Source of the DNA: a bacterium 1XD42-54
GTDB lineage: Bacteria > Bacillota > Clostridia > Lachnospirales > Lachnospiraceae
Direction: 5' to 3'
DNA length: 64,000 nucleotides
NCBI GenBank assembly: GCA_003612585.1
Contig: RAZH01000007.1
Span: 124,001-188,000 of the forward strand
A program made the translations under genes and the position numbers. Position 1 is the stretch's first letter; each line of letters starts with the position of its first letter. Positions 57,076 through 59,365 of the stretch are shown here, piece by piece. A model generated the notes under the pieces. It was not told where the DNA came from. It saw nothing but the letters and a program-made list of their open reading frames with translations, and made no database searches.

Positions 57076-58761
57076 TTAGAACAGTCCGGAAATCTTTCCT
57101 GTCTCGTCTACATCAATTCTCTCTGCAGCCGGAACCTTCGGCAGACCCGGCATTGTCATGATTTCTCCGGTCAGAGCTACGATAAAGCCTGCACCTGCCG
57201 AAATCTTCAGGTTACGTACCGTAACTTCAAAGTCCGTCGGAGCGCCAAGTTTTGTCTGGTCATCTGTCAGAGAATACTGGGTCTTTGCCACACAGATCGG
57301 GCAGTTGCCGTAGCCAAGTGCCTCAAGCTCTTTTGCCTGTTTCTGTGCATTTGCAGTCAGAACCACTTTCTTGCCGCCGTAGATCTTCTGTACGATCTGA
57401 TTCAGCTTATCTTCGATGCTTCCTTCCAGCTCATAGCTGTAAGTAAAGTCGTTCGGCTCTTCTACAAGACGGATTACTTCTTCTGCAAGGCGTTTTCCAC
57501 CTTCGCCGCCCTTTGCCCATACTTCAGAAAGTGCAACGTTTACGCCAAGCTCTCTACACTTGCTCTCTACGAGGTCAAGCTCTGCCTTTGTATCGGTCGG
57601 GAATGCATTGATTGCAACCACGCACGGAAGTTTGTATACGTTCTTGATGTTGCTTACATGTTTCAGAAGGTTCGGAAGACCTTTCTCAAGTGCTTCCAGG
57701 TTCTCATTGTTCAGATCAGCCTTCGCCACGCCGCCGTTGTATTTCAGTGCACGAACTGTAGCAACGATAACAACTGCGTTCGGTGTCAGTCCTGCCATAC
57801 GGCACTTGATATCAAGGAACTTCTCTGCTCCAAGGTCTGCACCAAAGCCTGCCTCTGTGATCGCATAATCACCAAGCTTCAGAGCCATCTTTGTAGCGAT
57901 TACGGAGTTACATCCGTGAGCGATGTTTGCGAACGGTCCGCCGTGTACGATAGCCGGTACATGCTCCAGAGTCTGAACAAGGTTCGGCTTCAGAGCGTCC
58001 TTCAGCAGTGCACACATAGCACCCTGTGCATTCAGATCGCCTGCTGTTACCGGCTTCTGCTCGGAAACCTTGCCATATGTATATCCAATGATGATCCGTG
58101 CAAGACGGTTCTTCAGGTCTGTAATGTCACTTGCAAGACACAGTACTGCCATGATCTCAGATGCTACAGTGATGTCATAACCATCCTCTCTCGGCATACC
58201 GTTCGTCTTTCCGCCAAGTCCGTCTACCACGAAACGAAGCTGACGATCGTTCATATCCACACATCTTCTCCATGTAATCTTACGCGGGTCGATGTTCAGC
58301 GCATTGCCCTGGTAAATATGATTGTCAATCATAGCTGCAAGCAGGTTGTTTGCTGCGCCGATTGCGTGGAAGTCACCTGTGAAGTGAAGGTTGATATCTT
58401 CCATCGGAACTACCTGTGCGTATCCGCCGCCTGCTGCTCCGCCCTTTACGCCGAATACCGGTCCGAGAGACGGCTCACGAAGAGCTACCATAACATTTTT
58501 GCCAAGCTTCTGAAGTCCGTCAGCCAGACCAACTGTCGTAGTTGTCTTTCCTTCACCTGCCGGTGTCGGGTTGATCGCGGTAACAAGAACCAGCTTGCCA
58601 TTCGGCTTGTCAGAATCTTTCAGAAGATTGTAGTCAATTTTTGCCTTGTAATTTCCATACTGCTCCAGATATTTCGGGTCAATGCCAGCCTTTGCTGCGA
58701 TCTCCGTAATCGGAGACATAACGGTTTCCTGTGCGATTTCAATATCAGATTTGAATCCCAT
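57076..58761 (-). CDS. fhs: Formate--tetrahydrofolate ligase
   Basis: [55 protein letters not shown]. Confidence 0.97.
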
Positions 58762-59031
58762 TGTAGTAAAATCCTCCTTAAATATATTTTAATTGTTTAT
58801 GAACTGTTTTGTTAAGGTACAAAAAAAGCACCTCAAGCGTCTGATGAATCTCATGCACCCAGCCGGCTTGCCGTTTTCCCGGCTCACGGAGGCAATCAGA
58901 AAAGGGTCTGAATCCAAACGAAGCAACCTCTGCAAAATACAGACTCTGCAAAATCCATCCGCCGCTTTTCTTTTACCATACCGATAACCGCACTAAAACT
59001 GCGCAAAGGGACACTTCATCCATCTTAACGC

Positions 59032-59127
59032 AGTAGCGGAAGCGATACTGTAACGCGGAGGAACTCCTTCGTTCACAAAAAGACCTTCCCATCTTGTGAC
59101 ACTTAACGTACTTGTATCTTCTCTACT
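59032..59127 (-). ncRNA. THF (tetrahydrofolate) riboswitch aptamer upstream of fhs
   Basis: Minus strand AGTAGAGAAGATACAAGTACGTTAAGTGTCACAAGATGGGAAGGTC...AACGAA...CGCGTTACAGTATCGCTTCCGCTACT; conserved CGTTAAGTG, ATGGGA, ACGAA, CGCG; stems AGTAG/CTACT, GATAC/GTATC, CACAAG/TTTGTG. Confidence 0.88.
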
Positions 59128-59218
59128 TTCTTTATAGAAGAAATAGATATAAAATTGTTGATGAAGATTTCTGTCTGCTGCTTTTGCTCTTTACACCTGA
59201 CGGTTGGACCTGATAAAT

Positions 59219-59252
59219 AAAAAAGACAACACTTGTTTTTCAAATGCTGTCC
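59219..59252 (-). terminator. Intrinsic terminator within the fhs leader (ZTP expression platform)
   Basis: Minus strand GACAGCATTTG-AAAAA-CAAGTGTTGTC-TTTTTT (11 bp with two G-U). Confidence 0.8.
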
Positions 59253-59330
59253 AGACGGTCGACAAGCCCTATTATCTTGATTACCTTGTGGTGCTCCACA
59301 AAATCCGTCAGCAATCAAAACCTTCAACTG
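59248..59330 (-). ncRNA. ZTP (pfl) riboswitch aptamer upstream of fhs
   Basis: Minus strand TTGATT-GCTGACGGATTTT-GTGG-AGCA-CCAC-AAGGT-AATCAA-linker-CCGTCTGGACA; P1, P2 and GACGG/CCGTC pseudoknot present. Confidence 0.8.
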
Positions 59331-59336
59331 TCGTTT

Positions 59337-59365
59337 ATTATAGCAGATAACTCCGGGCTCGTCAA
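59337..59365 (-). promoter_or_regulatory. Sigma-A promoter of the fhs leader
   Basis: Minus strand TTGACG-17-TATAAT. Confidence 0.8.

Follow-up and report, generated by a model that had tools for sequence, protein, structure and literature searches.

A ZTP-THF tandem riboswitch leader of fhs in Lachnospiraceae whose anatomy suggests an activating THF half

In this work, we analyzed the leader of fhs in a 64 kb stretch of Lachnospiraceae DNA (the window), where a ZTP and a THF-I riboswitch stand one after the other behind a single promoter. Comparison of this leader with those of relatives leads us to lean towards a model of two terminators, each controlled by one of the aptamers and in competition with that aptamer's last helix, so that the fhs gate would compute ZTP AND THF. 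The pairing itself, which an earlier note on this DNA had been unsure was described, is not new: Sherlock et al. 2022 tabulated ten ZTP/THF-I tandems and predicted for them an 'A AND NOT B' gate (PMC9481103). The signs in that table were assigned from the expression platforms, the THF half being OFF, and the article credits the first sighting of the tandem to the class-validating papers of Kim et al. 2015 and Ames et al. 2010 (PMC9481103). The published tandems and the leader described here share the two classes, their order, a one-carbon gene downstream and a ZTP half that is ON. They differ in that the THF half is assigned OFF in the published set, whereas here it ends in a terminator that shares bases with P1, which predicts ON, and in that the gene behind the tandem is fhs throughout this Lachnospiraceae group. 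In this group of gut bacteria, the layout suggests a second sensor that would switch fhs on and not off as published.

The fhs locus, its ZTP half and the distribution of the tandem

The gene is encoded on the minus strand (57076..58761) and specifies a formate--tetrahydrofolate ligase of 561 aa (PF01268, E 4e-273 in Pfam), preceded by the ribosome-binding site AAGGAGG read from the sequence (58773..58779, minus). A formate/nitrite transporter gene lies downstream of fhs on the same strand (Pfam). The Rfam models for both riboswitch classes score above their cut-offs on the minus strand, in agreement with the aptamer types named in the earlier note: the ZMP/ZTP aptamer RF01750 (59242..59325) reaches 51.6 bits against a cut-off of 39, and the THF-I aptamer RF01831 (59032..59127, P1 = AGUAG/CUACU) 62.7 bits against 36, with E = 8e-12 across the whole window. 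Besides these two, the only Rfam matches in the 64 kb are two tRNAs, and relaxing the threshold to E 5 brought up no further match of note in the leader. The aptamers are separated by 114 nt, and the THF aptamer ends exactly 270 nt before the fhs ATG, where about 270 nt had been noted. Only one ORF of at least 80 aa spans the gap between the aptamers (59387-59103, TTG start), and since it overlaps the promoter and the ZTP aptamer it was taken as spurious. Both aptamers therefore lie in one leader, less than 300 nt apart and with no credible gene between them, which is how a ZTP/THF-I tandem is defined.

The single promoter ahead of both aptamers, TTGACG-17-TATAAT (59337..59365, minus), was recovered by our scan where it had previously been placed, with 11/12 consensus bases and a TG preceding the -10 element. 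A TTGACR/TATAMT promoter ending 10-19 nt ahead of the ZTP aptamer is present in all 18 tandem leaders collected (see below), and this conservation argues against transcription of fhs without the leader from a second promoter, TTAACA-18-TAAAAT (58815-58786, minus), located just before the ribosome site. Even though the latter has 10/12 consensus bases, chance alone would give 2.2 sites of this quality in the stretch scanned, and we regard it as a highly improbable explanation.

The intrinsic terminator reported after the ZTP aptamer was found as well. This terminator, T1, is a hairpin of 12 pairs in the pattern scan (59252-59224, minus) with a U-run to 59219, and the fold of its region has a z of -3.25. 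Its 5' strand, GGACAGCA, has (G)GACA in common with the 3' strand of ZTP P3, so that the two overlap, and a T1 overlapping the 3' part of the ZTP aptamer is kept in 18/18 tandem leaders. This is the ON platform of RF01750: in the pfl motif, of which fhs was named as a common target, the terminator overlaps the 3' part of the aptamer with ON logic (PMC2864571). The ZTP riboswitches of fhs and purH have the same aptamer-overlapping terminator and ON logic but stand alone, without a THF element. The ON anatomy expected of its class is thus supported for the ZTP half, ligand binding is predicted, and ZTP bound to its aptamer would block T1. The genome of the window carries two ZTP and two THF elements in all. 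Its second ZTP riboswitch (G000:C11:555327-555430, minus; L097, G000:C11:553800-555800) has the purine targets to be expected behind it, first an IMP cyclohydrolase-like gene (PF07826) and next an AICARFT gene (PF01808).

We searched 60 genomes (the window's own, 35 more from its genus and 24 from the order) for pairs in which the coordinates from the two Rfam searches put a THF element after a ZTP element, on one strand and at most 300 nt away. The tandem was found in 18 of the 36 genomes of the Lachnospiraceae genus set, own genome included, hence in 18/60 overall with all 18 within the genus, and it precedes fhs in each of them. A pattern scan of GTDB genomes gave 49 matches, of which L109, L121, L122, L127 and L155 are chance matches outside fhs. 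It added further Lachnospiraceae fhs leaders, with records named Parablautia, Robinsoniella, Murimonas and Candidatus Choladousia among them, and Rfam confirmed the ZTP element in eight of the pattern-found leaders that were re-scanned. Two further families of the class have ZTP-THF tandems as well, L177 (G203) upstream of an ECF S component (Pfam), and L179 and L203 (G263) upstream of genes that are folT-like by reading.

A hairpin that shares bases with P1 of the THF aptamer

A feature absent from the previous description is a hairpin that starts inside the THF P1. This hairpin, T2 (ACUGCG...CGCAGU, 59034-58998, minus; 58995..59034 with the UUUU that follows), opens with three bases (59034-59032) that are at the same time the closing bases of P1. 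P1 ends in CUACU and runs on as ACU-GCG...CGCAGU, usually with a U-run behind, and the shared bases are found in 20/20 fhs leaders of an unbiased set picked by coordinates alone. Altogether, the P1-competing hairpin is present in 44/46 distinct fhs leaders and is followed by a U-run in 42/46 by a lenient criterion; at least five U stand immediately after the CGCAGU strand in 35/46, and in a few more with an offset of one or two bases. For 26 of these 46 leaders, CTACTGCG was fixed in the search pattern itself, so that the shared strand is given by construction and only the 3' strand and the U-run count there as evidence. In Murimonas, a drifted 3' strand (ACGUGGUA) still pairs with the fixed 5' strand.

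A U-run hairpin that shares bases with P1, and would be disrupted by P1 formation, has the topology of an ON switch. THF binding would stabilize P1 and thereby block T2. In static folding of the fhs leaders without ligand, the terminator state is favored over the P1 state by a median of 3.8 kcal/mol (the values for L060 and L138, -1.4 and -1.5, stem from a shifted 13-bp hairpin and not from T2), a gap that ligand binding could plausibly surmount. A conserved antiterminator that would turn the proximal T2 into an OFF terminator was not apparent when the fhs leaders were read by eye.

Several observations speak against this ON model. First, just three bases of P1 are shared, so that P1 might coexist with a shortened hairpin. 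Second, the U-run is weak in the species of the window and in its sister L138: the T2 tail, U5-U8 in most relatives, is eroded to U4 (UUUUAG) in both, whose leaders are 90% identical. The same two observations would fit T2 being a fixed attenuator insensitive to THF, or a THF half decaying in the window species, with ZTP alone controlling fhs. The fhs leaders L065 and L066 of the group also fit this explanation, as they keep the THF element only, and the loss of their ZTP half indicates that parts of the leader are dispensable. On the other hand, these same leaders have retained the THF aptamer, and the aptamer of the own genome, at 62.7 bits, keeps its conserved bases; we consider loss of THF control to be quite unlikely. 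At the place occupied by the ZTP element elsewhere, between the promoter and the THF aptamer, L065 and L066 have a hairpin (GCGGUCAGA...UCUGACCGC) that is long and plain and lacks a U-run.

Sign of the THF half in fhs, folT and folE leaders

THF-I riboswitches generally repress. The THF-I elements of folT and folE have the same aptamer as the fhs leaders, and the P1-competing hairpin is also frequent among them, but what accompanies it differs. At the non-fhs THF loci (folT or folE wherever Pfam-tested, mostly folT-like by reading), the hairpin occurs in 34/60 and a U-run in 1/60, compared with 44/46 and 42/46 in the fhs leaders; an overlap criterion of 4 T in 7 flagged 7/60 of the non-fhs loci, and the stricter U-run left the one. 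Conversely, complementarity of the hairpin region to the ribosome site has a median z of -3.4 in folT/folE leaders (n=49, usable start) and of -0.2 in fhs leaders (n=43; p 1.3e-6). In folT/folE, also within the genomes that carry these fhs leaders, the hairpin thus goes with ribosome-site complementarity, that is, translational control and OFF, whereas in fhs it goes with a U-run and transcription. An anti-ribosome-site element under P1 control gave no signal in the 43 fhs leaders, where the ribosome site can be several hundred nt away from the hairpin, and this mode of control was rejected for them. The other THF riboswitch of the window's genome, L067 (G000:C23:236687-236793, plus), precedes a folT-like ECF transporter S component, and its leader is of the anti-ribosome-site type.

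From this anatomy and the static folding, our reading is that a hairpin tied to ribosome-site control in folT/folE has turned into a terminator in fhs, inverting the sign. The published logic would instead have ZTP turn fhs on via T1 and THF turn it off through an unrecognized platform. It has in its favor that A AND NOT B was predicted for ZTP/THF-I tandems from their expression platforms (PMC9481103), that the folT/folE THF switches carry the anti-ribosome-site elements of the usual OFF anatomy, and that the tandems outside the family, L177 and L179, precede folT-like genes with such a platform. In the fhs leaders, however, a U-run follows the P1-competing hairpin in most species, the hairpin region has no complementarity to the ribosome site, and this site lies up to several hundred nt downstream, which makes the published logic rather unlikely for fhs. 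A THF-half terminator competing with P1, together with the absence of an anti-ribosome-site platform from fhs leaders, argues that the gate is more likely ZTP AND THF. The sign of the THF half in this group is then probably, with the balance close to even, opposite to the one assumed in the literature. Of the reading advanced in the earlier note, a two-input leader on one gene and the ON anatomy of ZTP hold; THF as a repressor is not supported, given that in almost every relative the P1-competing hairpin has the form of a terminator, from which activation would be expected.

Fhs attaches formate to THF, and ZTP signals a shortage of 10-formyl-THF. With both halves ON, transcription of fhs would require high ZTP, a sign of scarce 10-formyl-THF, together with the presence of THF, on which the enzyme acts. 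At low THF, it is folT and folE that would be released. We give an even chance to the wider proposal of a sign-inverted THF-I, one aptamer class that within a single cell turns down the uptake and synthesis of folate and turns up its use, the tandem computing ZTP AND THF. If so, one genome would employ a single kind of folate sensor in two senses, OFF where folate is made or imported and ON where it is loaded with formate. It would be a compact case of gating by substrate and need through RNA alone, Fhs being made at a shortage of its product in the presence of its substrate, and the truth table published for ZTP/THF-I would fail for fhs. The question of sign is directly testable on the several dozen natural leaders, which differ in whether they have the ZTP half and in whether their terminator is proximal or distal.

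A possible distal element in lineages with an eroded T2 tail

In the window, a possible distal terminator, which we propose tentatively and whose U7 was likewise absent from the previous description, is formed by UGCCUC (58894-58889) and GAGGUG (58834-58829) followed by C and U7 (58827-58821; whole element 58821..58894, minus), the stem of -21.2 kcal/mol closing just ahead of U7 in the window fold. A possible long-range antiterminator would consist of a 5' strand that abuts P1, GCGUUAAGAUGGAU (59018..59031, minus), and the 3' strand AUUCAUCAGACGC (58837..58849, minus); the two pair in the leader fold and also in the fold with P1 forced. Across species, a duplex permutation test showed a pairing preference of the hairpin's 5' strand for the downstream region of its own leader over those of other species (p 0.00035), several lineages being without this signal. 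In the window species, a P1 stabilized by THF would probably free the strand after P1 to act as antiterminator, and pairing of 59031-59018 with 58849-58837 would keep the distal U7 stem from forming. With the T2 tail eroded, it may be this distal element that does the work.

In L128, L144 and L150, three other lineages with an eroded T2 tail, the proximal hairpin has 10-11 bases that can pair (by reading) with the 5' strand of a strong distal terminator, and these elements can be viewed as a terminator/antiterminator/anti-antiterminator set, the antiterminator fold being reproduced among these three in L144 only. Forcing P1 gave the antiterminator fold in the own genome (G000), L138 and L144, and forcing the T2 hairpin in L144 gave the distal terminator fold; in L128 and L150, which have lost the U-run, the distal terminator persists in the static fold with P1 forced, which speaks against the ON model. 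All the routes proposed predict ON with THF, the evidence being thinner for the window's species than for the group.

A third aptamer between THF and fhs was considered, since GCCGGCUGGGUGC, located ahead of the distal element, resembles the ZTP 3' motif, and was discarded for want of an Rfam match even at E 5. A U-run (U5-U7) is conserved tens of bases ahead of the ribosome site in the window (58820-58833, minus, where it is flanked by AGGUGC/GUACCU) and in L054, L055, L056 and L049.
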